Part shown: piece after piece, positions 6,005-26,040 of the stretch
How positions within the stretch are numbered: the first letter of the stretch is position 1
Layout of the letters: every line of letters starts with the position of its first letter
NCBI RefSeq assembly: GCF_900094805.1
Contig: NZ_FMAT01000002.1
Span: forward strand, 1-64,000
DNA length: 64,000 bases
Direction: 5' to 3'
DNA from: Arthrobacter sp. NIO-1057
GTDB lineage: Bacteria > Actinomycetota > Actinomycetes > Actinomycetales > Micrococcaceae
The notes under the pieces: model-generated
Databases searched by the model: none
What the model was told of the DNA's origin: nothing
The model's input: only the letters and a program-made list of their open reading frames with translations
Program-made: the position numbers and the translations under genes

Positions 6005-7468
<1,464 letters not shown>

Positions 7469-7476
7469 GCAAAGGT

Positions 7477-7503
7477 TTATGCAATGTTGCTCATAAATAT
7501 TCA
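7477..7503 (-). promoter_or_regulatory. ArgR operator (two ARG-box halves) upstream of argH
   Basis: On the plus strand the site reads TTATGCA-N9-ATAAATATTCA. The same two blocks with the same 9-nt spacing occur upstream of argC, and both resemble ARG-box half sites (TGAAT/ATTCA and TGCAT types). The site overlaps the expected -35 region, so ArgR-arginine binding should repress argH. Confidence 0.7.
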
Positions 7504-7638
7504 CTGGGTTGCTGATTCATGCAATTTTTCTTTCCGTCGCGACACGCAGGAAACTCGATGTTTAACCTCTTCCAGTCCACAGCACCCGGGCGTATGGTGT
7601 TGCCATAACCGAATCGGAACTAACTTCGGAGGTACGAA

Positions 7639-8190
7639 ATGGAAATCCAGTTGTACCGGGGTGACATCACCACCCTGCACGTTGATGCCATCGTGAACGC
7701 CGCAAATCCTTCATTGCTAGGCGGTGGCGGTGTTGACGGAGCAATTCATGAAGCAGCTGGTCCTAGCTTGTTGGCTGCCTGCCGCGAAGTTCGTGCACAG
7801 CGCTATCCGGACGGTATCCCCTCAGGAATTGCTGTGGCCACGAAGGCCGGGGCCTTGGACGCGAAATGGGTCATCCATACGGCCGCACCTAATTTGGCGC
7901 TCATCAAGCCGAACCCAAAAATCCTCAGCGATTGCTTTGTGAACTCGCTGTACGTGGCCGCACGCCACGATGCCCATTCGATCGCGTTCCCCGCAATCGG
8001 GGCCGGGGCTTTCGGCTGGGAACCACAGCAGGTTGCCGACATTGCTCATGAAGCCATTGAACGGTGGATCGACACCAACAAGCATATTTCGCCGATCCAC
8101 AAAATTGTGTTGGTCGCGCACACCGATGAAGTTCAGGCAGCTTTCGAGCGGGCCTTTGGTTTAGACGCCATTGAAGAAGTGGCGGCCTGA
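7639..8190 (+). CDS. Macrodomain protein (O-acetyl-ADP-ribose deacetylase type)
   Basis: A single macrodomain of 183 residues. The ADP-ribose-binding signatures are intact: DAIVNAANPSLLGGGGVDGAIHEAAG (residues 15-40), GIPSGIAVATKAG, and the catalytic-loop segment PAIGAGAFGWEP. This is the MacroD/YmdB class, which hydrolyses O-acetyl-ADP-ribose and removes mono-ADP-ribose from proteins. The start is supported by GGAGG 7 nt upstream. It is divergent from argH, and the intergenic region holds the argH operator. A T-tailed terminator follows directly. Confidence 0.9.
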   Translation: MEIQLYRGDITTLHVDAIVNAANPSLLGGGGVDGAIHEAAGPSLLAACREVRAQRYPDGIPSGIAVATKAGALDAKWVIHTAAPNLALIKPNPKILSDCFVNSLYVAARHDAHSIAFPAIGAGAFGWEPQQVADIAHEAIERWIDTNKHISPIHKIVLVAHTDEVQAAFERAFGLDAIEEVAA

Positions 8191-8216
8191 TGTTCGGAAT
8201 GCTCTAGACACAAGTG

Positions 8217-8255
8217 TTGCCGCGCCCCTTCGCTAAGAAAGGGCGCGGCAATTTT
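8217..8255 (+). terminator. Rho-independent terminator after the macrodomain gene
   Basis: 11-bp perfect stem TTGCCGCGCCC/GGGCGCGGCAA with a 13-nt loop followed by TTTT. It sits 27 bp after the stop codon. Confidence 0.85.
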
Positions 8256-8335
8256 CTGCCTCCAGACGGCGTGATGCCGTGCGGAAGTTAGTCAGCGCGT
8301 GCAGTCAAACGCGTGCGCTCAAAAAAGGTGGCGTG

Positions 8336-8737
8336 CTATCCAGCGCGGGAGAAATAGGTATTGCGCCGCGGTTGCTGATCGGGGTCGAGATGCTTGGGCA
8401 GTATGACGTAGGGCAATCCCTTGACCTTCACGAGTCTCAAATAGCCGTTATGGACCATCACGTGATGGCTCCTACACAACGGACAGCAATCCTGCAGGCG
8501 CGTATGCCCGCCTTTGGACCAGGGTTTGAAGTGGTGGTAGTCCAAGAGTGCTGGCTCCTCAGTACAACCGGGGACCAAACAGCCACCGTCTCGGTCACGA
8601 GCGGCCAGCTTCATCCATCGTGGGAAGAGCCGGGCGTCTCGACCGATGTCCATGATGACCCCATCGGCGTTATAGATCGGACTTAAGACCTTCGCTTCAC
8701 ACAGCATGGTGCGCAGTTCGCAGGCGCTGAGTTTCAC
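8336..8737 (-). pseudogene. HNH nuclease domain, 3' part of a frameshifted DUF222/HNH gene
   Basis: 133 residues carrying a complete HNH motif: two CxxC-like pairs around DYHHFKPWSKGG and the late SHHVMVHNG. In the DUF222/13E12 family this domain follows directly on the DUF222 region, and the segment KLSACELRTMLC here continues the sequence that ends the upstream frame. The first codon is a GTG that overlaps the stop of that frame (GTGA). One extra G in the GGG run at 8737-8739 would join the two frames. It is therefore either a disrupted gene, a sequencing error, or translated by coupling or slippage. Confidence 0.7.
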
Positions 8738-10149
8738 CCGTGCGCGGTGACACCACTCAGCGAGCCCAGATCGGCCAGGTCTTGATAGCTGGCATGCACC
8801 ACAATTTCCGGAGTGATGCGTTTTGTACTATTTTCCGGATCGATATTGCGTAGCACCGCGTTCAGCGCGTTCATTCTCCGCTGAGCCACGGTGCAGGTGC
8901 TTGGCATTGTGGGCGCAGGGCTTGCGGGCAGCGAAGCATCGGACGATGCTGCGGGGTCGGCAGGAGTTTGTGCTCCGCGCGCCCACTGAGGAATTGGCTG
9001 ATCGCTATGCCAGAGTTCGTCGACCTGAGGATCGGCCTCTGCGGTACCTTGCGCTGGGGTGTCTTGCTCTGCGGTTGCTGCAGAAGTTTGTTCAGTTTGT
9101 TCGGCCTGATCGGATGCTTCGGACTGGGAGTTTTGCTCCGTTTGGCGGGCGGCTGCTCCAGCTTGGGTGCGCTTGTTATCGGCCTGAGCGATCAGCGAGT
9201 TCCACAGTTCGGCATCCAGGGAAGTTACGCGAACGATGAATTCGTGGACACCGTTGATGACCTTGCCTCGGAAAAGCCCCAATGCTGGTGTTTGAGTCTC
9301 TTGGTGCAGGTCCTTGTAATCCTTAATGAGAGTGTTCAGGTGCTTTTGCCGGCTGCGCACCGAGGGTTCATGCAGCATTTCGCTGGCGTGTTCTTCAAGT
9401 AGTACGCCGTCGGGCCCGGTAGCGGTAGCCGTGGTCGGCAGGCCGTCAAAGGTGGTGTCTTCGGGTTCGAACCTATCTAATGCTCGCGCGGCTTTGAGCA
9501 CTTCACGTGGGTCGCGCAGGTAGTGCAGGTCTGGTGGACTCCACGGCGCGGATGCGGAATCGGATGAAGAAGCCGAAACGTCAGTTGGAGCATCATCCTC
9601 CGGCGATGGTTGCGCGCCGGTGGCGAAATGCTCGGCCAAGAGCTGGAAGCGCGGGGCACAGGGCACAGCATTCTGATCGCGTCGTGCGTGAAGCAAATGC
9701 GCATCCTTCACCCGGCGTGCGGCCTCAAAATAGTTCATGTCCAGCAGGTTGGAGAGCACACTGGCAGCGTCTTGATAAACCGTGCGGCCGGCGGCGAAGC
9801 GCGGTTCTGCGCTGAAGTCGGTGCGACCAGCGTGCAGATCGTCAAATTCATCCAGGTCCAGGCCGTGCGCGGCGGTGGTTTCAACCAAGCTGGCGGCGAT
9901 GATGTTCGAACGGGTGGCTTGGTAGCTAAAAGCCTGCGCGAAATGGGCATAGGCCAACGCGGCTCGCGGATCATTCAGGTGCTCGGCCTGGGCGGACAGT
10001 TGATTCAGCAGTTGCAGGCAGAGGGATTGAGCGTGCAGCAGTTCTGGCGCGTTCAGCTCTGACGCGTCCAGTTCCGGGCGCTGACCGGCGCGCTGGGCCA
10101 CGTCGGTGGCCAGCTCGGTGAGCCGGTGCGAGAGCTGCAAGAGATCCAT
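8734..10149 (-). pseudogene. DUF222 domain protein, 5' part of a frameshifted DUF222/HNH gene
   Basis: About 471 residues from the ATG giving MDLLQLSHRL. The DUF222 region is followed by a long acidic, Gln/Glu/Ala-rich stretch (about residues 325-430) that looks like low-complexity linker, then NALNAVLRNIDPENSTK and the typical lead-in to the HNH domain, where the frame ends in TGA. These proteins are multicopy and variable in Micrococcaceae and are often called mobile-intron-like HNH endonucleases, though their function is not settled. The frame is open upstream to the argR terminator, but no ribosome binding site is visible for any start. It inserts between argR and argH. Confidence 0.65.
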
Positions 10150-10189
10150 GGGTCGATAGTGCAGCGGATTCGACCGGTTAAACAGCACA

Positions 10190-10220
10190 CCGCCACGCAC
10201 TGTGGATAAGTGCGTGGCGG
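10190..10220 (-). terminator. Terminator hairpin after argR
   Basis: Perfect 11-bp stem CCGCCACGCAC/GTGCGTGGCGG with a 9-nt loop, about 30 bp beyond the argR stop. A strong T-run is missing. It ends the argCJBDFR operon. Confidence 0.65.
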
Positions 10221-10246
10221 ATAAGTGCGCAGCGGATCAGTGCGTA
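10202..10246. repeat. Three tandem 15-bp repeats between argR and the HNH gene
   Basis: Three adjoining 15-bp units starting at 10202, 10217 and 10232 (GTGGATAAGTGCGTG, GCGGATAAGTGCGCA, GCGGATCAGTGCGTA). The array ends exactly at the argR stop codon, and its first unit supplies part of the right arm of the terminator hairpin. Confidence 0.85.
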
Positions 10247-10750
10247 CTAGCGCGGTTCGGCCAATTGCAGGAAGCGGGCGGCGACTTCTGCGCCGCCGTC
10301 CACCTGGCGGGTGGTGACCATGATGGTGTCATCCCCCGCGATGCAGCCTAGGATCGAGGGCATCTGCGAGTGGTCGATGGCCAGAGCCAGCAGGTTCGCC
10401 GCGCCCGGCGGGGTACGCAGCACCACGATATTCCCGGAGGCTTCGGCGGTGACCAGCTGTTCGGCACAGATCTTCGCCAGTCGCGCGTCGAGCACTTCCT
10501 GGGTGATGGCGGTCTGCGGGGAGCGGTCCCCGCCTTCCTGGCGCACCGCGTAGATCAGCTGACCGGAATGGTCGCGGATGCGCACCGCGCCAATTTCCAC
10601 CAGGTCCCGAGAGAGCGTGGCCTGGGTGACTTCAAGACCGTCGTCTTTGAGCAACCCGAGCAGCTCGGCCTGGGACTTGACGGAGTTGTTTCCCAAAAAG
10701 GCGCGGATGCGGGCCTGCCGGGCGGTTTTGGTACTTGGCTGGCTGGACAT
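10247..10750 (-). CDS. argR: Arginine repressor
   Basis: Hexameric arginine-responsive regulator of the arginine genes. The N-terminal winged-helix region (residues 8-75) contains TQATLSRDLVEIGAVRIR, the recognition helix region of ArgR. The C-terminal domain has the oligomerisation/arginine-binding GCIAGDDTIMV motif. The 167-residue length is normal. The ATG lies 1 nt after the argF stop, so translation is probably coupled. It is the last gene of the operon it should repress. The two composite operators in the window are its likely targets. Confidence 0.96.
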   Translation of the reverse strand: MSSQPSTKTARQARIRAFLGNNSVKSQAELLGLLKDDGLEVTQATLSRDLVEIGAVRIRDHSGQLIYAVRQEGGDRSPQTAITQEVLDARLAKICAEQLVTAEASGNIVVLRTPPGAANLLALAIDHSQMPSILGCIAGDDTIMVTTRQVDGGAEVAARFLQLAEPR

Positions 10751-10751
10751 C

Positions 10752-11711
10752 TTAGAGCTCCACTCGCGGATCTTCGGCCAACCCCGAGGCGACCATCAGC
10801 CAGGTCATGATGGCTTTTTGGGCGTGCACGCGGTTTTCGGCCTCATCGAAGACCACCGACTGTGGCCCATCGATCACCTCGGCGTCGATTTCGTAGCCGC
10901 GGTAGGCCGGCAGGCAGTGCAGCACGATCGCGTCCTCCTTGGCCAGCTTCATCGCTTCGCTGGTGACCGAGTAGTCGGTGAACAGCTTCAGGCGTGCTTC
11001 CTTTTCATCTTCTTGCCCCATGGAGACCCAGGTGTCGGTGACTACCACGTCGGCATCCTTCAGCGCGGCGGTGGCATCGGTGGTGATGGTGACCGATCCC
11101 CCGGTGAGCTTCGCACGTTCCTGGGCGGCGGTGATGATCGAATCGGCGGGCAGGTAGCCTTCGGGGCCGGCAATGCGCACGTGCATTCCGGCGGTGACCC
11201 CGGCCAGCAGGTAGGAGTTGGCCATGTTATTCGCCGCGTCCCCCAGGTAGCTCATGGTCAACCCTTGCGTGGCCCCCTTGTGCTCGCGCACGGTGAGCAG
11301 ATCGGCGATCAACTGGCACGGGTGGTAGTCATCGGAGAGCGCGTTAATCACCGGCACCGATGAGTTCGCGGCCATCTCTTCGAGCCCGGACTGGGCGTAG
11401 GTGCGCCACACGATGGTGGAGACCATGCGTTCGAGCACCTTCGCGGAGTCGGCGATGGACTCCTTATGGCCCAGCTGGGATTCACCGGAGTTGATGACCA
11501 GCGGGGAGCCGCCCAGTTCGGCAATGCCGGCATGGAAGGAAACGCGGGTGCGGGTGGAAGTTTTGTCGAAGAAGACCGCGACGGTTTGCGGCCCGGCGAA
11601 GGGCTGGTAGCCGTATTTGTCGGCCTTCATCTTGGCGGCCAGATCGAGCACCTTGGACTGCTCGTCGGCGGTGAAATCCAGGTCGGTCAAAAAGTGGCGG
11701 GTAACGCTCAT
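10752..11711 (-). CDS. argF: Ornithine carbamoyltransferase
   Basis: Transfers carbamoyl from carbamoyl phosphate to ornithine to give citrulline. The carbamoyl-phosphate motif STRTR lies at residues 51-55 and the ornithine-site motif HCLPAYRG near residue 264. DTWVSMG is also present. Length is 319 residues. The ribosome binding site AAAGGAAC precedes the ATG. It lies 50 bp after argD and directly before argR. Confidence 0.97.
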   Translation of the reverse strand: MSVTRHFLTDLDFTADEQSKVLDLAAKMKADKYGYQPFAGPQTVAVFFDKTSTRTRVSFHAGIAELGGSPLVINSGESQLGHKESIADSAKVLERMVSTIVWRTYAQSGLEEMAANSSVPVINALSDDYHPCQLIADLLTVREHKGATQGLTMSYLGDAANNMANSYLLAGVTAGMHVRIAGPEGYLPADSIITAAQERAKLTGGSVTITTDATAALKDADVVVTDTWVSMGQEDEKEARLKLFTDYSVTSEAMKLAKEDAIVLHCLPAYRGYEIDAEVIDGPQSVVFDEAENRVHAQKAIMTWLMVASGLAEDPRVEL

Positions 11712-11762
11712 CGTGGGTGTTCCTTTTCGTACGTCACGGTCGCATTCGGTGGCCGCGAATTT

Positions 11763-13031
11763 TTAGGCGTTGGCGATCAGCTGTGGCAGGGCGGTGAGGA
11801 AAGTTTCCAGCTGCTCTTGGGTGATCACCAGTGGTGGGGCCAGGCGGATGGTGTTCTCGTCGGTGGCGTTGATGATGAACCCGGCATCCAGCGCCACCGA
11901 CACCAGCTTGGGCGCATTGGCTTCGGCCAGTTCAAAGGCCGTGAGCAGTCCTGCCCCGCGAACCTGGCTGATCCCGGGGATCTGTGAGAGCTGTTCGCGC
12001 AGCCAGGTCCCGTTGGTTTTCACCGCTTCGAGCAAGTTCTGGGATTCGATGGTGTGAATGACCGCAAGCCCGGCGGCGCAGGCCATCGGGTTGCCGCCAA
12101 AGGTGGTGCCGTGATCGCCGGGGGTCAATCGCGCACAGTTCTCTTCCCCGAAGACGATCATCGCGCCGATCGGGAAGCCACCGCCCAACCCCTTGGCCAG
12201 GGTCATCACATCGGGAATGACCGGGGTGGAGGCGAAGAAGGCGCCGGTGCGGCCCATGCCGGTTTGTACCTCGTCGAAGACCAGCAGGGCTCCGGCCTCA
12301 CGGGTGATCTCGCGGGCCGCCTGAAGGTACTGTGCCGAGAGCATTTTCACTCCGGCTTCGCCCTGGATCGGCTCGATGAACACGGCAGCAACGCTCTCAT
12401 CGACCGCAGCGCGCAGGGCTTCGATGTCCCCGGCCGGGATCCAGGTGACGTTTTCGGGCAGCGGGGCGAAGGGTGCGCGGTACTTTTCCTTATGCGTCAG
12501 GGACAGGGCGCCGAGGGTGCGGCCGTGGAAGGCCTGTTCTAGGGCGATCACCTTGGTGCGCGGTGCTTCAGGGGTACCGGTGTTGCGTCGAGTCAGCTTC
12601 AGTGCGGCCTCATTGGCTTCGGTGCCGGAGTTCGCGAAGAACACCTTGGAGCCGGTCGGGGCGCCGGAGATTTCGAGCAGTTTCTCGGCCAGGGCGATCT
12701 GGCTTGGGGAGGTGAAGAAGTTGGACACATGCCCCAAGGTCGCCAATTGGCTGGTGATCACACTGGTCAGCAACGGGTTGGCATGTCCCAGGGTGTTGAC
12801 CGCAATGCCGCCGAGCAGATCGAGGTACTGCTTACCGTCGGCATCCCACACATGGCAGCCTGCCCCTCGTACCAACACCCGCTGCGGGGTGCCAAAAACA
12901 CCGAGCAGGGACTGCTGGTAGCGCTGTGAGAGGGCCGATGAGGAAAGCTGGGAGAGCTCATGGACCTCGTCGCTGGCCAAATCGGCGGCCAGATCAGTGG
13001 TCTTGGGTGTGTGCGTCGCTGACTCGCTCAC
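11763..13031 (-). CDS. argD: Acetylornithine aminotransferase
   Basis: PLP-dependent class III aminotransferase converting N-acetylglutamate semialdehyde and glutamate to N-acetylornithine and 2-oxoglutarate. The PLP lysine is in [14 protein letters not shown], and the upstream [12 protein letters not shown] segment carries the cofactor aspartate. Length is 422 residues. The GTG start overlaps the argB stop (GTGA), indicating translational coupling. It may also serve as succinyldiaminopimelate aminotransferase, as in other bacteria, which cannot be decided here. Confidence 0.96.
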
Positions 13032-16396: not shown

Positions 16397-17365
16397 ATGC
16401 AGCAACAAGCCATCGTGGTTAACGAGCCAACCGACGCCACTGGATTGCAGCAAACCCAAATCCCGGTTCCTACCCCGGGCGCCGGTGAGCTACTGATCAA
16501 GGTCGCAGCCACTGGCGTGAACTTTATTGAAACCTATCAGCGCAGTGGCGTGTACACCGTTGACTACCCCTTTGTCCCGGGCTCTGAATTCTCCGGCGTG
16601 GTAGAGCAAATCGGCGAAGGCGTACAAAACTTCGCGCTCGGCGACCGGGTTGCCACCGCCTCGGGCATCGCCGGGTATTCGCAATACGCTCTGGTCCCTG
16701 CGGATTTGACAGCCAAGGTCCCCGACGCAGTTGACCTACATATCGCTGCGGCACTGCCGCTACAGGGAATGACCGCGCACTACCTGGTCCACTCCAGCTA
16801 TATGGTCCACGAGGGCGATGTCATCCTCACCTATGCTGGCGCCGGCGGTGTGGGACTAATCCTCACCCAGCTGCTCAAGCTCAAGGGCGCCACCGTGATC
16901 ACCACCGCATCCACCCAGGAAAAGAAGGACCTGGCCAAGGCCGCTGGCGCCGACTACGTGGTGGACTATGACCAGGTCGCCGATACCGTCGACAAGGTCA
17001 CCGATGGCCAAGGTGTTCATGCGGTGTACGACGGGATCGGCAAGGACACCTTTGATACCTCGCTGGCAGCATTACGACGCCGTGGAACCTTGGTGCTCTT
17101 TGGCGGGGCCAGCGGTCAGGTCCCGGCCTTTGACCTACAACGCCTAAACGCCGGCGGATCCTTGACCGTCACTCGCCCCAAGCTCGCAGACTTCCTCACC
17201 TCACAGCAGGAGATGCACTGGCGCTTTGGCGACATGGTCGGCTGGGTGGCCACCGGCAAGATCGATGTACGCATCGGAGCCCGGTATCCGCTTTCTGAAG
17301 CGGGAGCTGCACACACGGCACTGGAATCGCGCGCGACCACCGGAAAGGTCATCTTGTTACCGTAA
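16397..17365 (+). CDS. qor: Zinc-independent quinone oxidoreductase (MDR family)
   Basis: A 322-residue medium-chain reductase of the zeta-crystallin/Qor type. The N-terminal GroES-like part contains GVNFIETYQRSGVY, and the Rossmann part has the NADPH motif AGAGGVG. The structural-zinc cysteines of alcohol dehydrogenases are absent. It likely transfers one or two electrons from NADPH to quinones. GAGGAG lies 9 nt before the ATG. It is divergent from argC and about 230 bp before the Pls gene in the same orientation, with a terminator between, so no operon link is implied. Confidence 0.9.
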   Translation: MQQQAIVVNEPTDATGLQQTQIPVPTPGAGELLIKVAATGVNFIETYQRSGVYTVDYPFVPGSEFSGVVEQIGEGVQNFALGDRVATASGIAGYSQYALVPADLTAKVPDAVDLHIAAALPLQGMTAHYLVHSSYMVHEGDVILTYAGAGGVGLILTQLLKLKGATVITTASTQEKKDLAKAAGADYVVDYDQVADTVDKVTDGQGVHAVYDGIGKDTFDTSLAALRRRGTLVLFGGASGQVPAFDLQRLNAGGSLTVTRPKLADFLTSQQEMHWRFGDMVGWVATGKIDVRIGARYPLSEAGAAHTALESRATTGKVILLP

Positions 17366-17597: not shown

Positions 17598-20500
17598 ATG
17601 GATCCGTTCATAATGAACAACGATCAAACTCCTGCGCCGGATCAAGAAATCTACGCCCCCCAGTTTCCTTCCGGTGCCCTAGCCCCGGCTCCCCGGACCC
17701 TCATCGACATCCTCCAGGCCACCGCACAACAACACCCTGATGCGCCGGCCATCGATGATGGCGAACGGACCGAGAGTTATGCCGAGCTACTTGATGAGGT
17801 CAAAGCCAAGGCCCTGCGCCTGCATGAGCAAGGCCTAGGAGCCGGTGACCGCATTGGTGTGCGTGTTGAATCGGGCACCCGCCACCTCTACGAATGGATC
17901 CTCGCGATCCTTTGGGTCGGCGCCGCCTACGTACCAGTAGATGCCGACGATCCGGACGAACGAGCCAAAACGGTCTTCACCGAGGCCGAGGTCGCCGGCA
18001 TCGTCAAAGGCACCGATACCATCGTGGTCAACGCCCAGAGACCCAAGCCTTTTGCTTCCCCTCGGCTACCCGGGCTTGAAGACGATGCCTGGATTATTTT
18101 CACTTCCGGTTCCACCGGCAAGCCTAAGGGTGTGGCCGTATCACACCGTTCGGCGGCAGCCTTCGTCGACGCCGAAGCGCAGATGTTCCTTCCTGCTGAC
18201 CCGCTGAACACCACCGACCGCGTGCTCGCCGGACTCTCGGTAGCCTTCGACGCTTCCTGTGAAGAAATGTGGATCGCCTGGCGTAATGGAGCCTGCCTGG
18301 TCCCGGCCCCGCGCGCCCTGGTTCGCAGCGGCATGGACCTAGGCCCTTGGCTAATTTCACGTTCGATCACCGCGGTCTCCACCGTCCCCACCTTGGCAGC
18401 CCTGTGGCCTGCTCAAGCATTGGATTCGGTACGTCTGCTGATTTTTGGTGGCGAAGCCTGCCCACCGGAACTGGCCGGACGTTTGGCCACCGACGGACGT
18501 GAAGTCTGGAACACCTACGGCCCGACCGAAGCCACGGTAGTAGCATGTGGCGCCACCATGGATGGCAGCCTGCCGGTACGCATCGGCCTGCCACTAGCCG
18601 GTTGGGATCTGGCGGTCGTCGACCCGCAGGGAATCCCTGTGGCCGAGGGCGAATCCGGTGAACTGATCATCGGCGGCGTAGGACTAGCTCGTTACCTTGA
18701 TCCGGAAAAGGACGCCGAAAAGTATGCGCCGATGCCCACCCTGGGCTGGGAACGCGCCTACCGCTCCGGCGACATGGTGGTCAACGACCCGCTGGGTCTG
18801 ATCTTCATCGGACGCGTGGATGACCAGGTGAAAATCGGTGGACGCCGCATCGAACTCGGCGAAATTGATGCGGCCCTGAATTCCTTGGTCTGTGTCTCCT
18901 CCGCCGCGGTGGCCGTGCGTGAAACCGCGACCGGCAACAAGATCCTCGTCGGTTACCTCCAAGCACCCGAGGACTATGATCTTTCTGCGGCCCGCACCGC
19001 ACTGCTCGAAGATTTGCCAGCACCCATGGTGCCCATCCTGGCGGTCATGGATCACCTGCCGATGAAAACCAGTGGCAAGGTCGACCGCAACGCCTTGCCT
19101 TGGCCTTTGCCGGGAGCCGAAAGCAATGACTCTTCCGGGGAACTCCCACAGCTTGATGAAGTCGGTGAATTCATTGCCGAAGCCTGGCAAGGTGCTTTAG
19201 GTGCTTCGGTGTCCGGTTTTGATGCGGACTTCTTTGCTGCCGGTGGCGGATCGCTCTCGGCAGCCCAATTAGTCTCCGCGTTGCGCGTTCGCTACCCGGA
19301 TATGACGGTGGCAGAGCTCTATGACTACCCACGCTTTGGTGCCCTGGTGGAATACCTCGGCGGGCAACAGGTGAGCAGTGAACCGGTAGAACCACGCACC
19401 GTGCGTCGTACCAAACGCATGACGCAGCTGGCGCAGACTCTGGTCTCCTTCCCGCTCTTTATCCTTTCAGGCCTACGTTGGTTCACCTACCTACTCATCG
19501 GCCACGCAGCCCTTGTTGCCTTGGGAGTCTTTGAAGAAGCCCTATCCACCCCGTGGTACGTGATCGCCGGACTGTGGCTGGTCTTTGTCACGCCGATCGG
19601 ACGAATGGTCCTATCCATCGTGGCCAATAAGTTGTTGTTGCACGGCCTAACACCCGGCGTGTATCCGCGTTCCGGTTCGGTGCACCTGCGACTCTGGTTA
19701 GCGCAGCATGTCGCTGATGTGGTGGATCCAATTTCACTGTCCAGCGCACCACTTCTGCCGTGGTATGCCCGCATGCTCGGTGCGAAGATCGACAAGACCG
19801 CCACCTTGCACAGCCTGCCACCGGTGACCGGTATGCTCACCGTGGGTCCCGGCGCGACCATCGAACCCGAGGTCGATGTCAGTGGTTACTGGATCGACGG
19901 CGATAAGCTGCACGTTGGTGCCATCGAGGTCGGTGCCCACGCCTCCATCGGTGCACGCAGCACTTTGGTCCCCGGGGCAGTGATCGGCGCCCACACCATT
20001 GTCGATGCTGGTTCCGCCGTGTACGGCAGCACCCGCGATAATTCGCGCTATGCCGGTTCCCCGGCCACCCGTCAGTCCAAGGCCAAGCCAAAATGGCCAG
20101 AGGCCGTACCGGTCTACCGCAAGCTGCCACGTGTTCTGGCAGGTCTTGGTTCCATCGTATTGAATCTGTGGCAGTGGATCCCTGTGGTGCTGGCGTTCTT
20201 CGCCGTCACCCCGATTCTTCGCCCGGTACATTCACTGGCCGACATTGGTTGGCGTTTCATCCCTGCCGTCCTTCTGGCAGCACTCGTGTGGTTCCTGTCC
20301 AGCATGGTGCTGACCATCCTCATCGTGCGCCTGCTGTCCATCGGCTTGGTCGAAGGGTGGCACCCGGTCACCTCACGCGTGGGCTGGCAGGCATGGGCCA
20401 CCGAACGTGTCTTGGATACCGCCCGCGATCAGCTCTTCCCGCTTTATGCCTCGCTGTTCACCCCCATCTGGCTGCGTCTCTTGGGAGCCAAGGTGGGACG

Positions 20501-21548
20501 CGACGTGGAAATCTCGACCGTCCTGTTGATCCCGAAGATGACGACCATCTCTTCGGGAGCGTTCTTGGCCGACGACACCATGGTCGCCTCCTATGAGCTT
20601 GGTGGTGGCTGGATGCATATCGCCCCGGTCCGTGTGGGCAAGAAGGCCTTCCTGGGTAACTCGGGCATTTTGCATGCTGGTCGTCGAGTCCCGAAGCGTT
20701 CCTTGATCGCGGTGCTCTCGGCGACCCCGAAGAAGATGAAAGCCGGTACCTCCTGGATCGGTTCGCCACCTAATAAGTTGCGCCGCACCACGGTGGAAGC
20801 TGAATCCGAACGTACCTACCGTCCTGGTCTGAAGCTGAAGATCATGCGTTCGTTCTGGGAACTGACCCGTTCCTTGGCGGTCTTCACCACTGCGGCGATT
20901 GCCGGTGGAGTGCTCTGGGCGCTGGCCGCCATGGCTAACGTCACCAACATTTGGGTCAGCATGCTGCTTTCTGGAGCTGTTCTGGTACTTGCTGGGGCCG
21001 TGGCCGCTGCAGTTGCCGTGGTAGCTAAGTGGCTGGTTGTTGGTCCGATCCGTTCCGGTGAGCACACCCTGTGGAGCTCATTTATCTGGCGCACCGAAAT
21101 GGTCGATTCCTTCACCGAATTGGTCTGTGCTCAGTGGTTCGCACGCCTGGCGTCAGGAACCCCGGCACTGGTCTGGTTCTTGCGTGCACAGGGCGCCAAG
21201 ATCGGCCACGGCGTCTGGTGCGAAAGCTACTGGTTCCCCGAAGCGGATCTGGTGACCCTGGAAGATCACGCCACGGTGAATCGTGGCTCCGTACTGCAAA
21301 CCCACCTCTTCCACGATCGCATCATGTCCATTGACGCGGTCACCTTGGGAGCCGGTGCAACCCTAGGCCCACACAGTGTGATTCTGCCAGCCGCCCAGAT
21401 TTCTGAGGGTACGACCACCGGGCCTGCCAGCTTGATCCTGCGCGGTGAAGTCTTGCCTGCCAATACCTACTGGCGAGGTAATCCCGCTGTACGCTGGAAC
21501 ACTACCGCCGAAACGCAAGAATCACAGCCAGTACCACAGGAAGCCTGA
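17598..21548 (+). CDS. Pls-type non-ribosomal peptide synthetase (epsilon-poly-lysine synthetase family)
   Basis: A 1316-residue membrane-bound synthetase with the architecture of Streptomyces Pls, about 1319 residues. An adenylation domain (about 40-500) has A3 FTSGSTGKPKG, A5 NTYGPTEATV, A7 YRSGDM, A8 GRVDDQVKIGGRRIELGEID and A10 KTSGKVDRNALP. A carrier domain follows with its phosphopantetheine serine in GGGSLS at residue 552. Then come six predicted membrane segments in three pairs (near 620-680, 845-915 and 1090-1150), alternating with three tandem hexapeptide-like domains that in Pls form the isopeptide bonds. No condensation or thioesterase domain is present. The A-domain pocket FDASCEE places glutamate in the code, which suits a basic amino acid such as lysine, ornithine or diaminobutyrate. 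Two starts are possible (17598 and 17613). Confidence 0.9.
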   Translation: MDPFIMNNDQTPAPDQEIYAPQFPSGALAPAPRTLIDILQATAQQHPDAPAIDDGERTESYAELLDEVKAKALRLHEQGLGAGDRIGVRVESGTRHLYEWILAILWVGAAYVPVDADDPDERAKTVFTEAEVAGIVKGTDTIVVNAQRPKPFASPRLPGLEDDAWIIFTSGSTGKPKGVAVSHRSAAAFVDAEAQMFLPADPLNTTDRVLAGLSVAFDASCEEMWIAWRNGACLVPAPRALVRSGMDLGPWLISRSITAVSTVPTLAALWPAQALDSVRLLIFGGEACPPELAGRLATDGREVWNTYGPTEATVVACGATMDGSLPVRIGLPLAGWDLAVVDPQGIPVAEGESGELIIGGVGLARYLDPEKDAEKYAPMPTLGWERAYRSGDMVVNDPLGLIFIGRVDDQVKIGGRRIELGEIDAALNSLVCVSSAAVAVRETATGNKILVGYLQAPEDYDLSAARTALLEDLPAPMVPILAVMDHLPMKTSGKVDRNALPWPLPGAESNDSSGELPQLDEVGEFIAEAWQGALGASVSGFDADFFAAGGGSLSAAQLVSALRVRYPDMTVAELYDYPRFGALVEYLGGQQVSSEPVEPRTVRRTKRMTQLAQTLVSFPLFILSGLRWFTYLLIGHAALVALGVFEEALSTPWYVIAGLWLVFVTPIGRMVLSIVANKLLLHGLTPGVYPRSGSVHLRLWLAQHVADVVDPISLSSAPLLPWYARMLGAKIDKTATLHSLPPVTGMLTVGPGATIEPEVDVSGYWIDGDKLHVGAIEVGAHASIGARSTLVPGAVIGAHTIVDAGSAVYGSTRDNSRYAGSPATRQSKAKPKWPEAVPVYRKLPRVLAGLGSIVLNLWQWIPVVLAFFAVTPILRPVHSLADIGWRFIPAVLLAALVWFLSSMVLTILIVRLLSIGLVEGWHPVTSRVGWQAWATERVLDTARDQLFPLYASLFTPIWLRLLGAKVGRDVEISTVLLIPKMTTISSGAFLADDTMVASYELGGGWMHIAPVRVGKKAFLGNSGILHAGRRVPKRSLIAVLSATPKKMKAGTSWIGSPPNKLRRTTVEAESERTYRPGLKLKIMRSFWELTRSLAVFTTAAIAGGVLWALAAMANVTNIWVSMLLSGAVLVLAGAVAAAVAVVAKWLVVGPIRSGEHTLWSSFIWRTEMVDSFTELVCAQWFARLASGTPALVWFLRAQGAKIGHGVWCESYWFPEADLVTLEDHATVNRGSVLQTHLFHDRIMSIDAVTLGAGATLGPHSVILPAAQISEGTTTGPASLILRGEVLPANTYWRGNPAVRWNTTAETQESQPVPQEA

Positions 21549-21560
21549 GGCAACCCACCG

Positions 21561-22862
21561 ATGCACCATCGCATTTTAGATGAGTACACCAAGCACTACG
21601 GCTCCGGAACCTACACCGTGGAACATTACGATGTGAACCTCGTGGTGAAGCTCGCGAGCAACCACCTCGACGGCCGAGCCATGCTGCGCATTCGCGCACT
21701 CGAAGATATCAACGAGATTCCGTTGAACCTCAACGGGCTGAAGATCATCAAGGCCACTTGCCAGGGACGCAAGGTCTCGGTCAGCAAAAAGCACCACCGC
21801 GTGGTCATCTCCACCCCGAGCCGGATCAAAGCCGGGGATCATATCGAATTGAATCTGCGCTATGGCGGAAACCCCAGCGTCGATAACGGGCAATGGGGCG
21901 AGGTGGGCTGGGAAGAGCTCACCGACGGCATCCTCGTTTCCGGCCAGCCGGTGGGAGCTTCGACCTGGTTCCCCTGCAATGACCATCCAAGCCACAAGTC
22001 CTCCTACCGTTTTGAGGTGTCCACCGATGCGGGCTACCGCGTGGTGGCCAATGGCGATTTGATCTCGCACAGCCGCTCGGCCAGCCGCAATACCTGGGTG
22101 TACGAACAACGCGAGCCCATGGCCACCTATCTGGCGACCTTGCAGATCGGGCGCTACATCGAAATCGCCTTTGACCGCGGGCACCATCTGCTGGCCTACT
22201 CGGTTCCAGGCAATGATCTTCCGTTGCGCGGAGCCTTCGCGAAGCAAAGCCAGATGGCCGAGATCTTCGAGCGCAAATTCGGCCCCTACCCATTCGAGAA
22301 TTACAAGATCGTCGTGGCCGACGACGAACTCGAGATTCCCTTGGAAGCCCAGGGAATGAGCATTTTCGGGCGCAATCACCTTTCGCTGGAGTGGGAAGCC
22401 CAGCGCCTGATCGCCCACGAGTTCGCGCACCAGTGGTTCGGCAATTCGCTGACTCCCTCGCGGTGGAAGGACATCTGGCTGAACGAAGGCTTCGCCTGCT
22501 TCAGCGAGTGGGTGTACTCGGAGCACGCCGAGGTCATGCCGATCGAGCAGCGTGCCCGCGCGGCCTGGGAGAAGCTCAAGTCCCTGCCCCAGGATCTGCA
22601 GATCGGGGACCCGGGCCCGAAGGACATGTTCGATGATCGTGTCTACAAGCGTGGTGCCCTGACGCTGTATGCCTTGTATGTAGCTCTTGGTGAGATGAAG
22701 TTCTACGAGATGCTGCGCGATTGGACGGGCACTTATCAGCATGGCAGTGTCGATACGCCGAAATTCACTGAGCATCTGAAAAAGCATGCAACCGGTGTTG
22801 ATGTTGATCAGATCTTGCAAGCTTGGCTCAACGAGCTACCCCTGCCGGACTTCCCAGCTTAA
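21561..22862 (+). CDS. M1-family zinc metallopeptidase (aminopeptidase) linked to Pls
   Basis: 433-residue gluzincin. The zinc site is HEFAHQWFG (His286, His290) with Glu309 in NEGFA, the exact M1 spacing. The usual GAMEN exopeptidase motif is replaced by an LEAQGMSIF segment. Only the N-terminal saddle and catalytic domains are present, with no long ERAP-type C-terminal domain. No signal peptide is visible. It starts 12 bp after the Pls stop, with GAGG between, so the two are co-transcribed. In Streptomyces, epsilon-poly-lysine-degrading enzymes are zinc aminopeptidases, so trimming or self-protection against the Pls product is a reasonable inference. Confidence 0.88.
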   Translation: MHHRILDEYTKHYGSGTYTVEHYDVNLVVKLASNHLDGRAMLRIRALEDINEIPLNLNGLKIIKATCQGRKVSVSKKHHRVVISTPSRIKAGDHIELNLRYGGNPSVDNGQWGEVGWEELTDGILVSGQPVGASTWFPCNDHPSHKSSYRFEVSTDAGYRVVANGDLISHSRSASRNTWVYEQREPMATYLATLQIGRYIEIAFDRGHHLLAYSVPGNDLPLRGAFAKQSQMAEIFERKFGPYPFENYKIVVADDELEIPLEAQGMSIFGRNHLSLEWEAQRLIAHEFAHQWFGNSLTPSRWKDIWLNEGFACFSEWVYSEHAEVMPIEQRARAAWEKLKSLPQDLQIGDPGPKDMFDDRVYKRGALTLYALYVALGEMKFYEMLRDWTGTYQHGSVDTPKFTEHLKKHATGVDVDQILQAWLNELPLPDFPA

Positions 22863-22885
22863 AGTCCTTCCAAGCTCGCGTACGC

Positions 22886-22918
22886 GTTCAGGAACCGTTC
22901 AAAAACCGTTCATCCATA
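22886..22918 (+). promoter_or_regulatory. PHO-box-like direct repeats upstream of ppk2
   Basis: GTTCA occurs at 22886, 22897 and 22908, exactly 11 bp apart, with ACC at the end of the first two units. This is the geometry of the actinobacterial PhoP binding site (11-bp direct repeat units beginning GTTCA). It lies just upstream of the predicted -10, in the -35 position. Confidence 0.65.
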
Positions 22919-22923
22919 AAAAT

Positions 22924-22929
22924 TAGGCT
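22924..22929 (+). promoter_or_regulatory. -10 box for ppk2 (leaderless)
   Basis: TAGGCT, 6 nt before the ppk2 ATG and 6 nt after the PHO-box repeats. No Shine-Dalgarno site precedes the ATG. Confidence 0.45.
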
Positions 22930-22935
22930 TATCCT

Positions 22936-23832
22936 ATGAGTATAGAAATGCCCCTCCTCGACGACGCGTTTCGCGGATTCACGGTACTTGATGACGATGA
23001 TGACGATCCATTGTTGCTCCGCGCCGATGGCAGCGTTGTTGATACCTGGCGCGAGGACTACCCTTACGATGAAAAGCTTGACCGCGACACCTATGAGGTT
23101 GAAAAGCGCGCACTGCAGATTGAGCTGCTGAAACTTCAGAAGTGGGCCAAGGCCAACGGCCGACGCATCATGATCGTTTTTGAGGGCCGTGACGCCGCTG
23201 GCAAGGGCGGAACCATCAAACGCTTCACCGAGCACCTGAATCCACGTGGTTCCCGAGTTGTTGCTTTGGAGAAGCCCAGCGAGCGTGAGTCCACCCAGTG
23301 GTACTACCAGCGCTATGTGCAGCATTTCCCGTCAGCCGGCGAGATCGTGCTCTTTGACCGTTCTTGGTACAACCGTGCCGGCGTGGAACGCGTCATGGGA
23401 TTTAGCACCCCTGAACAGGTAGATCATTTCCTGAATCAAACCCCACTGTTTGAGAAGCTTGTGGTGGACGAAGGCATTGATCTGATCAAGTTCTGGTTCT
23501 CGGTCTCTGCTGGCGAACAGTTCACCCGCTTCACCATTCGACGTATCGACCCGGTACGACAGTGGAAGCTCTCCCCTATGGACCTAGAGTCCCTAGATAA
23601 GTGGGACAAGTACACGGAAGCTAAAAAGGAAATGTTCCTCAAGACGGATACCGATCATGCTCCGTGGACTGTGGTGAAGTCCAATGACAAAAAGCGTGCT
23701 CGCCTGCATGCAATGCGTCATGTGCTGAACCTCTTTGATTACAAAGGCAAGGACCACGAATTGGTCGGCTCGCCCGACCCACACATTGTGGGGCGTGCGG
23801 CAAAGGTCATTACCCACGGCGAAGAATTCTGA
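22936..23832 (+). CDS. ppk2: Polyphosphate kinase 2
   Basis: 298-residue PPK2-family P-loop kinase. It has Walker A FEGRDAAGKGG (about residues 82-92), the lid and Walker B segment LFDRSWYNRAGVERVMGF (about 137-155), and the conserved QWKLSPMD and APW segments. Family enzymes transfer phosphate from polyphosphate to a nucleoside di- or monophosphate, or the reverse. The single-domain form resembles class I (ADP/GDP). The acidic N-terminus (DDDDDD near residue 25) is unusual but outside the core. The upstream region suggests control by phosphate starvation and a leaderless mRNA. It lies between the Pls/M1 pair and the convergent phosphopantetheinyl transferase, so ATP supply for Pls is a possible but unproven link. 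Confidence 0.93.
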   Translation: MSIEMPLLDDAFRGFTVLDDDDDDPLLLRADGSVVDTWREDYPYDEKLDRDTYEVEKRALQIELLKLQKWAKANGRRIMIVFEGRDAAGKGGTIKRFTEHLNPRGSRVVALEKPSERESTQWYYQRYVQHFPSAGEIVLFDRSWYNRAGVERVMGFSTPEQVDHFLNQTPLFEKLVVDEGIDLIKFWFSVSAGEQFTRFTIRRIDPVRQWKLSPMDLESLDKWDKYTEAKKEMFLKTDTDHAPWTVVKSNDKKRARLHAMRHVLNLFDYKGKDHELVGSPDPHIVGRAAKVITHGEEF

Positions 23833-23838
23833 GAAGTT

Positions 23839-24516
23839 TCAGTTTGATCGCACGGTGATCGCGGTAGCCAGCAGGCCCTGACCCACCGGCCCTTCGGCCA
23901 TCCAGGTCCCAGTAATCTGGGACAGGTCAACGCCTTGGTGAAGGGTATCGGTGCGCAGTAGGTGCGCTGAGAATGTTCTCGCCTGCTGGTCTATCGTGAT
24001 TTCACATTCGAGAAAATCTAACCATTTCCTCGCTAACGGGAACCAGGTCTTAAAGACGCTTTCTTTGGCGCTGAAGATCAGTTTGTGCCAGGCGATGCTC
24101 GGATCTTCAGCCTCTAACTGCGCCACCGCCTGCTGTTCAGCAGGCAAGAGGATCAGCTCGACCGCTTCTGGTGGCAACACCTCGTGCGGTTCAGCATCAA
24201 TTCCGATGCCGCCGAACGCACTGGAGCTGGCCACCGCAGCCGCGCGCAAGCCAGGACAGTGCGTCATACTGCCCACAATATTGGCAGGCCATACTGGTGC
24301 CCTATGCGCATCAGGCACCAGAATGTGGTCCCCATACCCAAAGTCCGCCAAGGCCTCTCGCGCGCAAATCCTCACGGTGCGAAATTCTTGTTGGCGAGAC
24401 TCTACAGCGGAGGCGACGTACTGCTCTTCTTGCCAATATCGTTGCCCATGATCCAATTCTGAACGCGTTTCAACTACACGTATGGACTCGGGTAACAGCC
24501 TGTGAAAAATCTGCAT
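23839..24516 (-). CDS. 4'-phosphopantetheinyl transferase (Sfp/EntD type)
   Basis: 225 residues. The two signature segments are GIGIDAEPH (magnesium-binding D and E) and FSAKESVFKTWFP (the KESxxK helix), with the EntD-like NIVGSMTHCPG between them and the N-terminus. It moves phosphopantetheine from CoA onto carrier-protein serines. The carrier domain of the Pls protein nearby is the obvious client. It is convergent with ppk2, with 6 bp between the stops. Its ATG lies 9 nt after the stop of the DUF5129 gene, so it is probably transcribed with that gene. Confidence 0.9.
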   Translation of the reverse strand: MQIFHRLLPESIRVVETRSELDHGQRYWQEEQYVASAVESRQQEFRTVRICAREALADFGYGDHILVPDAHRAPVWPANIVGSMTHCPGLRAAAVASSSAFGGIGIDAEPHEVLPPEAVELILLPAEQQAVAQLEAEDPSIAWHKLIFSAKESVFKTWFPLARKWLDFLECEITIDQQARTFSAHLLRTDTLHQGVDLSQITGTWMAEGPVGQGLLATAITVRSN

Positions 24517-24525
24517 GATTCGCGG

Positions 24526-26040
24526 TTAGAAACGAGACGATCCGCCGGAACCGGAGAAACTGCCGCCTCCGGAATATCCTGTCGAAATCGATCCAGAAGA
24601 ACTAGCGGATTCACGGGCTTGAGCCACGGAGCTGGTGCCTGAAGAATATCCGGCGTTATAACTGTTGACGCTCCAAAACAGTGCTCCTGGATTTAGCACG
24701 TCGAGGATCGTTCCACCGCGTGAGCCGTGATAATCCGTTGACTGGCGAGAGCGTTCCATCGCTTCTCGCATTTGTTCCTTCTCGTCTTCGTTCTCGGCGA
24801 AGGCGTCAATCTGAGCCTTAGCAAATTCGTCGAGCCGCTGCGTTAGTTCTTTGCGAAGATCCGAAAGCTGGTCCAGAGCTTGGTCAACATCGATTTCTTC
24901 GGTCTTGAGCTTGGTGCTGAGCGAGGCCAACGTGGCGGTTGCATCCCCGCGGTAAGAAGCTAAAGCTGCTGCGCTGGCCTGCAGTTCCGGTTCGACGTTA
25001 TCAATGAGAGTCGAAATCTGGGTGAGGTCGTCTTCTAATGGCTGAGTTTGTGCGCGCCAGGCCTCTTCCCACGAGGCCGAGCGAGTGTATAACGCGGCAG
25101 CAGCAATGATCGCGTCGTCGGTGCGGTCCAGGTTTTGTGCATCCGTCTTGAATTTCTTGGTTTCCTCTACGCCTTCACTCGAAGACCGGTACTTCTTATC
25201 CGCAGCATCAAGTTTGGCTTGCGCGTCGAAGGACTGGCGGTAGCTCGCCATGAAGTCAGCAAAACGGCGTTCAAGTTCTGCGGCATGGCTGGACCCGGTA
25301 GGTAGGGTCTTGGCAGCGAGTTCGGTTTCGTCGAGGTCCATGGTCACGTTGGTCAGATGCGTTGTTCCGCTCTGAAGTTCCTCAGCGAAGCTCTTGCGAC
25401 GTGAGGAACGCACTGCAGCTACGCTGGCGACAACGATTCCCGTGCCACCACCACCGGCGGCCACGGTCCACCAGAGCGCTGGGCTCTTGTACCACGGACG
25501 GTTCATGATGCTCGAGGCCTTGGTGGCTACTGCGATCACGCCGTCGGTCCACCTCGATAGGTTGAAATCGTCGTAGCCGGCTTCATGAATGCTGTCCATT
25601 TGGCCGGTTGAGACTTTTCGGTCTTCACCAAAGTACGTACCAATTTGTCCATCACCAGAGCCCTCAACCGACAGAGTGATGATCAACAGTCCATCGGCCC
25701 AGTAATCCCCGTAGTCTTCAGCCTTGGCAGAAATCCAATCGGGATGATGTTCTCGAGCGTATTCCAGTGTTTTGGTATTGATGTCATCGGAGTATTCACC
25801 TTCGCGCGTGTATACAGCAACGTTGGTTGGCTCATAAAAATCAACATCGTCCAAGGCATCTAGGAGTCGATCGCGATTGATGACTCCGGCAGTGTCATCG
25901 ATGCTTACCGTACCCAGATTTTCACCGGCACGAATTTGTACGCCAGTTACAGCGTGAGCCGGGGTCACCACGCTGAGCAAGCCGAAGGAGAGAACCGCTA
26001 AGGCGCTAACCACTCGTTTATTTAGAATGCTTCGTACCAT
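24526..26040 (-). CDS. Secreted/membrane DUF5129 (TPM-like) protein
   Basis: 504 residues. A signal peptide ends at about residue 30 (PAHA), followed by a TPM-like extracellular domain (about 35-185, with the GLLIITLS strand), one membrane segment (about 190-212, WWTVAAGGGGTGIVVASVAAV), a long charged helical cytoplasmic region (about 215-450) and a Gly/Ser-rich tail ending in SGSGGSSRF. This order matches proteins labelled DUF5129 in Micrococcaceae. The function is unknown, though TPM-domain proteins act in membrane quality control and photosystem repair elsewhere. GAGGAG lies 8 nt before the ATG. The phosphopantetheinyl transferase gene follows in the same transcript. Confidence 0.75.
   Translation of the reverse strand: MVRSILNKRVVSALAVLSFGLLSVVTPAHAVTGVQIRAGENLGTVSIDDTAGVINRDRLLDALDDVDFYEPTNVAVYTREGEYSDDINTKTLEYAREHHPDWISAKAEDYGDYWADGLLIITLSVEGSGDGQIGTYFGEDRKVSTGQMDSIHEAGYDDFNLSRWTDGVIAVATKASSIMNRPWYKSPALWWTVAAGGGGTGIVVASVAAVRSSRRKSFAEELQSGTTHLTNVTMDLDETELAAKTLPTGSSHAAELERRFADFMASYRQSFDAQAKLDAADKKYRSSSEGVEETKKFKTDAQNLDRTDDAIIAAAALYTRSASWEEAWRAQTQPLEDDLTQISTLIDNVEPELQASAAALASYRGDATATLASLSTKLKTEEIDVDQALDQLSDLRKELTQRLDEFAKAQIDAFAENEDEKEQMREAMERSRQSTDYHGSRGGTILDVLNPGALFWSVNSYNAGYSSGTSSVAQARESASSSGSISTGYSGGGSFSGSGGSSRF

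Follow-up and report, generated by a model that had tools for sequence, protein, structure and literature searches.

Gene content of the locus

The stretch of DNA analysed here (64,000 nucleotides, hereafter the window), whose host genome is read as Glutamicibacter, carries a pls gene followed by genes for an M1 zinc peptidase, a PPK2 and a 4'-phosphopantetheinyl transferase (PPTase) (Table 1). Such a set of four genes had been proposed in the original prediction, and both the open reading frames and the family matches bear it out; each of the parts, as was also claimed, comes from a known family, with Pfam or NCBIfam matches for Pls, M1, PPK2 and PPTase. The active-site motifs of all four genes are intact.

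According to the open reading frame coordinates, the gap between pls and the M1 gene is 12 bp. The PPTase gene lies on the strand opposite to pls, outside the pls operon, and DUF5129 is situated 9 bp upstream of it on the same strand. The left neighbours of the locus are argCJB and a quinone-oxidoreductase-like gene; the right neighbours are DUF5129, a small gene, and pheST (pheS assigned by position only). The scan for promoters and terminators was uninformative, yielding one promoter-like site with 3.3 expected, and ten terminator-like sites with 7.7 expected.

Table 1. Features of the pls locus and its flanks (window coordinates).
Feature	Position	Strand	Basis and remarks
pls, epsilon-poly-L-lysine synthetase (Pls/PosA family)	17598..21548	+	ORF of 1316 aa; family match, pocket
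pls adenylation (A) domain, ~residues 40-500	17715..19097	+	Pfam; pocket identical to that of 7wew
pls carrier (PP-binding) domain, residues 525-587	19170..19358	+	Pfam; GGGS motif
pls membrane C-terminal region, residues 612-1297	19431..21488	+	TIGR02353
M1 zinc peptidase, two-domain type, 433 aa	21561..22862	+	Pfam; PldII-like by position and family
PPK2, TIGR03707 family, 298 aa	22936..23832	+	Family match; starts 73 bp past the M1 gene
Sfp/PptT-type 4'-phosphopantetheinyl transferase, 225 aa	23839..24516	-	4PPT_N and ACPS; probable loader of the Pls carrier
DUF5129 gene	24526..26040	-	Right flank; retained in 4/4 Pls-negative genomes
Quinone-oxidoreductase-like gene	16397..17365	+	Left flank of the site; retained in 4/4 Pls-negative genomes

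Domain structure and predicted product of the synthetase

Pls matches the Pfam families AMP-binding (5e-59), PP-binding (1.7e-9) and, once, Hexapep, while no condensation or thioesterase family was found in it by Pfam at E <= 0.001. Residues 612-1297 match TIGR02353 ("Pls/PosA family non-ribosomal peptide synthetase") with 630 bits, the cut-off being 423. This is the composition of a Pls/PosA homopolymer synthetase, that is, an A domain, a carrier and the TIGR02353 membrane C-terminus without C or TE domains, and both the core motifs of the A domain and the serine motif of the carrier are intact. The predicted order of domains held for the A domain, the carrier and the lack of C and TE domains, and was reproduced more weakly for the six helices and three hexapeptide domains of the C-terminus. 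A crude hydropathy scan yields three hydrophobic clusters (654-677, 846-922 and 1092-1152), which would be consistent with six helices without proving them; the putative division of the C-terminus into three domains is based on TIGR02353, as Pfam gives a single hexapeptide match.

The best solved relative of Pls is 7wew_A, "Epsilon-poly-L-lysine synthase" (615 bits, residues 11-507). The ten-position pocket of the window Pls, DAESIGTVVK, consists of the same letters as in the 7wew alignment; the positions were assigned by the PheA numbering, and the segments around them are nearly identical in the two proteins. Seven of the 145 Pls hits had frames of at most 1150 aa and were excluded from the pocket alignment, leaving 139 rows with the window; four genomes are present twice, and two sequences are other NRPSs. 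The same pocket was observed in 125 of these 139 sequences (the window counted in).

The second pocket position, the length-setting one, is Ala in lysine synthetases, Met in PosA, and Phe in the diaminopropionate/butyrate class (PMC10522769); in the window Pls it is Ala. As the pocket equals that of 7wew and has Ala at the second position, the substrate is predicted to be lysine, and the polymer, very probably, epsilon-poly-L-lysine; a polymer other than lysine was rejected on this evidence. Epsilon-polylysine synthetases characteristically form chains of 25-35 L-lysine residues joined by epsilon linkages. A synthetase for a cationic homopolymer had indeed been expected, and comparison of the pocket residues, proposed as a check, points to lysine. 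PosA, the delta-poly-L-ornithine synthetase of Acinetobacter baumannii, belongs to the same family and also has an A domain, a carrier, a membrane C-terminus, and an acidic pocket (D..E), but differs by Met at the length-setting position, and posA forms a single-gene operon (PMC10522769).

Two Glutamicibacter genomes (L212 in G011, 6210-10067; L213 in G002, 7989-11825) encode, besides Pls, a further Pls-like synthetase that shares 48% identity with the window Pls and has the pocket DAESIGTVIK. Relatives of M1, PPK2 and PPTase were not found in the fetched flanks of these genes.

The M1 peptidase and the pls-pldII pair

The M1 gene encodes the M1 N-terminal and catalytic domains (Pfam) with an intact HEXXH-18-E motif, and its closest solved relatives are 474-residue zinc metalloproteases, e.g. 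6a8z. In a survey of the class, a TIGR02353 protein at E <= 1e-100 was found in 105 of 394 genomes, and the reading covered 108 loci in 104 genomes (the window genome excluded; ten second copies were left out, and contig ends truncate some of the loci). Removal of 16 synthetases with less than 45% identity left 92 loci for the M1 count. In 89 of these non-Glutamicibacter loci (Pls at least 45% identical), a relative of the window enzyme is located at most 3 kb from pls, the three exceptions being L130, L137 and L181. Among the 16 excluded loci, a distantly related M1 (31-32%) occurs roughly 1 kb from the synthetase gene in four (L193, L195, L196 and L198).

In S. albulus, PldII overlaps pls by 4 bp, forms one operon with it, and affects chain length (PMC4361855, PMC9223678), and a pls-peptidase operon is known in C. 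variabile (PMC8117764). The window resembles both in the synthetase family, the lysine pocket, the directly following metallopeptidase and the probable product. With a metallopeptidase directly behind pls and related across Pls loci, the window enzyme would be PldII-like by family and position; this agrees with the original suggestion of a product-degrading zinc aminopeptidase 12 bp behind pls. The pls-M1 core is therefore not new, as it is the described pls-pldII operon. However, the units of S. albulus and C. variabile are described as consisting of two genes, whereas in the window PPK2 and PPTase are added behind pls-M1, and the Glutamicibacter unit seems to have travelled as a block in at least one genome. 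The Pls of C. variabile produced epsilon-polylysine in S. coelicolor, and no epsilon-polylysine was obtained from C. variabile in culture, nor from its pls in C. glutamicum (PMC8117764).

Conservation, loss and apparent transfer in Glutamicibacter

Pls above the cut-off was observed in 14 of 18 Glutamicibacter genomes. In all 14 a gene for M1 (at least 66% identity) is situated directly beside pls, while it is found in none of the four Pls-negative genomes. The same holds for the window-type PPK2 (at least 82% identity; 14/14 and 0/4), which adjoins M1 in the Pls-positive genomes except G011, where about 2.8 kb separate the two genes. Since the order pls-M1-PPK2 recurs in 14 genomes, chance adjacency is unlikely. 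The conservation of gene order proposed as a check thus was complete for M1 and PPK2 and partial for the adjacent PPTase (10/14).

In the Pls-negative genome G008, the PPTase matches codons 2-180 of 225 (with the break at about 180) and there joins pls codon 88. In this scar, pls codons 2-88 abut the truncated PPTase end; a deletion has thus taken out the bulk of pls, together with M1, PPK2 and the end of PPTase. In the tree of argB, argJ, argC and the oxidoreductase, covering 13 of the 18 genomes, Pls-negative genomes occupy three places (G008; G009 with G010; G003). Three loci of Arthrobacter-like relatives (L068, L108 and L109) also contain pls-M1 between argCJB and pheST, and PPK2, PPTase and DUF5129 gave no match there. 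Given the tree positions and these three loci, pls-M1 looks ancestral at the site and lost approximately three times, in the line of G003 with or without a PPK2. As the three loci hold pls-M1 without PPK2 and PPTase, the latter two look to have been added in the Glutamicibacter line.

On its arg side, G005 is distant from the window (argJ, 74% identity; argC, 83%). Its PepN segment is 88% identical to that of the window, compared to 95-96% in G015 and G014. Its PPK2 paralogue points the same way (66%, compared to 70-82% in G014/G015), but the values for G011 and G013 do not exceed this 66%. For Pls, the identity is 91% in G005, with 91% and 89% in G014 and G015, and for M1 it is 91%, with 85% and 84%, respectively. 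In the Pls+M1 tree (12 taxa) G005 is placed beside the window with support 0.990; in larger trees it groups with G007/G016 (Pls, 0.963; PPK2, 0.898; DUF5129, 0.952), and in the PPTase tree with G015/G016/G007 (0.987). As the cassette trees nest G005 near the window or G007/G016, while by the arg genes and PepN it is far, the simplest reading is that pls-M1-PPK2-PPTase, perhaps with DUF5129, reached G005 by lateral transfer. At the DNA level the G005 profile is noisy, with 67-84% on the arg side and 71-91% across the cassette. On the right the synteny differs, as no pheT turned up in the fetched flank.

In G014, PPTase and DUF5129 group with G012/G008/G001, and Pls and PPK2, with G015. Thus, the histories of PPTase and pls differ in some cases, recombination having split the two, and G014 argues against a fixed four-gene unit. 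In G004, Pls and PPK2 are 98.7% identical to those of the window, PPTase is 96% identical, and M1 just 89%, which suggests possible recombination within the cassette.

The phosphopantetheinyl transferase

The window PPTase has the 4PPT_N and ACPS domains (Pfam) with the motifs GIDAE and FSAKES, does not reach the NCBIfam cut-offs for PptT and Npt, and is the only 4PPT_N PPTase of its genome. Such PPTases were found in 11 of the 18 Glutamicibacter genomes, namely in ten of the 14 Pls-positive ones, always at the pls locus, and in G008. The search with the ACPS model revealed one short gene, read as AcpS, in each of the 18 genomes, and all 14 Pls-positive genomes have at least one PPTase besides it. 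In G002, G011, G013 and G017 the extra PPTase lies away from the pls locus and has no 4PPT_N match; one copy in G017 is situated just behind pheT. In each of the Pls-negative genomes G003, G009 and G010, PF01648 matches one gene only; its frame is short, it was interpreted as AcpS, and there is no further PPTase. Housekeeping as the only role of the PPTase was rejected on the basis of these three genomes. Judging by co-occurrence, the window PPTase is a probable loader of the Pls carrier, although its position outside the pls operon and its absence from the site in four of the 14 Pls-positive genomes speak against it as a part of the unit.

Synthetase genes with a neighbouring PPTase were also seen elsewhere. 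One such case is L203 (G039; 6210-10760), where the gene right behind that for a Pls-like synthetase (36% identity) encodes a PPTase relative (39%). At L229 (G017) and L230 (G001) a PPTase is located near an NRPS with DMENLGLINK at the aligned pocket positions, perhaps a siderophore cluster.

PPK2 at pls loci

The window PPK2 matches its Pfam family at 3.6e-100 and TIGR03707 with 375 bits (curated cut-off 301.8), has an intact Walker A motif, and its top matches among solved structures carry the name Polyphosphate kinase 2. PPK2 enzymes of the TIGR03707 class act in the ADP-to-ATP direction. A second, distant PPK2 (26-33% identity) is encoded in all 18 Glutamicibacter genomes. Outside the genus, a PPK2 was found in the fetched flank of pls at only one of the 92 surveyed loci, hence Pls generally does not need a nearby PPK2. 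The Glutamicibacter PPK2 is 75% identical to that of G156, a genome from another family, versus 64-66% to those of three matching genomes of its own family; being nearer to genes of other families, it may have been acquired. Strict co-occurrence in the genus and the apparently shared history with pls in G005 would argue for a link between PPK2 and pls, while co-loss is weak evidence, as the pls losses removed a block.

In Corynebacterium, PPK2 also tends to be found near pls. We considered 121 genomes of the genus of G393; this genus was taken to be Corynebacterium, since loci L074 and L077, from C. xerosis and C. halotolerans, show the arrangement too. The primary set comprised 86 genomes, each represented by its best pls row; 17 lower-scoring rows (second copies plus the sole row of four genomes) were excluded. 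In 79 of the 86, pls and PPK2 are on a single contig; the other seven comprise four with PPK2 on another contig and three where PPK2 had no match. PPK2 is downstream of and convergent with pls in all 79, at distances from 27 bp to 22.8 kb (within 5 kb in 65). This PPK2 is present in 115 of the 121 genomes, including 28 without any pls row, and its region matches the published groEL2-por-ppk2 region (PMC3792995). Among the 15 loci whose neighbourhoods were read as DNA (L074, L077, L130 and L231-L242), PPK2 was seen in 14, and an M1 relative at E <= 1e-5 in none (fetched flank), in contrast to the published pls-peptidase pair of C. variabile.

Hence in most surveyed genomes PPK2 is close to pls as in Glutamicibacter, but unlike in the window it is convergent with pls, persists without it, and is not sister to the Glutamicibacter gene in the PPK2 tree (no support value given for the nodes between them). 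The Corynebacterium neighbourhood was therefore rejected as proof of a pls-PPK2 link. By a rough hand estimate, with 35 genera having pls and a probability of some 0.6% per genus that a PPK2 is within 10 kb, finding two genera with such a neighbourhood is only mildly surprising. Pls and PPK2 may have met twice, and one of the meetings could be a positional accident.

Proposed function and relation to published systems

The best explanation of the whole, which we consider likely, is an epsilon-poly-L-lysine cassette with Pls, M1, PPTase and PPK2 working together, these activities and the product being predicted from identities, motifs, the pocket, conservation, and the patterns of loss and transfer. 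Judging by family and pocket, Pls would very probably adenylate L-lysine with ATP, yielding AMP and PPi, and load its own carrier, while its membrane C-terminus would polymerise and export the product. Similarly to PldII, M1 would, given its family and position, very likely cleave epsilon-polylysine outside the cell or at the membrane, curbing chain length and self-harm. PPTase would probably turn the Pls carrier into its active form, as its co-occurrence indicates. The least certain step, put forward tentatively, is that PPK2 may regenerate ATP from ADP using polyphosphate, Pls consuming one ATP per residue; AMP released by Pls would need adenylate kinase or another enzyme before PPK2 could act.

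The production of epsilon-polylysine, used industrially as a food preservative, is limited by ATP, and PPK2B of C. glutamicum together with PAP raised its yield in S. albulus by 21% (PMC10012588). PPK2 is there combined with epsilon-polylysine synthesis, as at the window locus, but the combination is engineered and includes an AMP-to-ADP enzyme, whereas that of the window is natural, with no such enzyme in the locus. By this analogy, PPK2 as an ATP source for Pls is plausible. The original prediction held the combination with PPK2 to be undescribed, which stands for natural loci, as no pls-PPK2 neighbourhood was found in the literature searched, and fails for PPK2-aided polylysine as such, already printed as engineering (PMC10012588).

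Glutamicibacter Pls homologues have been published, and the natural role of epsilon-polylysine is understood less well (PMC8117764). Searches of the accessible literature turned up no report that makes PPK2 or PPTase a part of a pls locus, and the accessible text of PMC11078813 has nothing on PPK2 or PPTase at pls loci. The part not found in print is thus the genus-level extension, PPK2 and PPTase behind pls-M1 in Glutamicibacter. A bolder version, in which this is a natural, laterally mobile epsilon-polylysine cassette with its own loader and polyphosphate-driven ATP supply, and the Corynebacterium pairing arose independently, is rather unlikely; if true, it would be a natural counterpart of the ATP-regeneration trick engineered into Streptomyces. 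With PPTase and PPK2 beside pls, and with Pls-positive and Pls-negative sister species, it is directly testable whether polyphosphate contributes to the cost of polylysine in nature, and which PPTase loads Pls. The genes pls-M1-PPK2-PPTase are suggested as a four-gene unit for heterologous production.

Alternative explanations

The strongest alternative, which falls somewhat short of an even chance, is that only pls and M1 cooperate, while PPK2 and perhaps PPTase are passengers, inserted between pls and DUF5129 within the Glutamicibacter line and then lost or moved together with the block. The Arthrobacter-like loci with pls-M1 alone at the same site, the rarity of PPK2 at other loci (1/92), the 73 bp gap upstream of PPK2, the block deletion in G008 and the different history of PPTase in G014 all fit passengers; the distribution of PPK2 (14/14 versus 0/4, with the four in three places of the 13-genome tree) and the PPK2 tree, which follows pls in G005, do not.

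Alternatively, PPK2 could adjust polyphosphate balance rather than ATP supply, polyphosphate as a polyanion binding polylysine or being displaced by it. Membership in the PPK2 family and the general chemistry of polyanions and polycations are compatible with such a role, yet we consider it improbable, as the support in print, which comes from engineering, concerns the ATP route only (PMC10012588).

Finally, that Pls makes another cationic polymer (ornithine or diaminobutyrate), or is silent or inactive, is very improbable: the Pls of C. variabile was silent in culture (PMC8117764), but the window pocket equals that of 7wew, with neither the Met of PosA nor the Phe of the diaminopropionate/butyrate class at the length-setting position, and the Pls motifs are intact.
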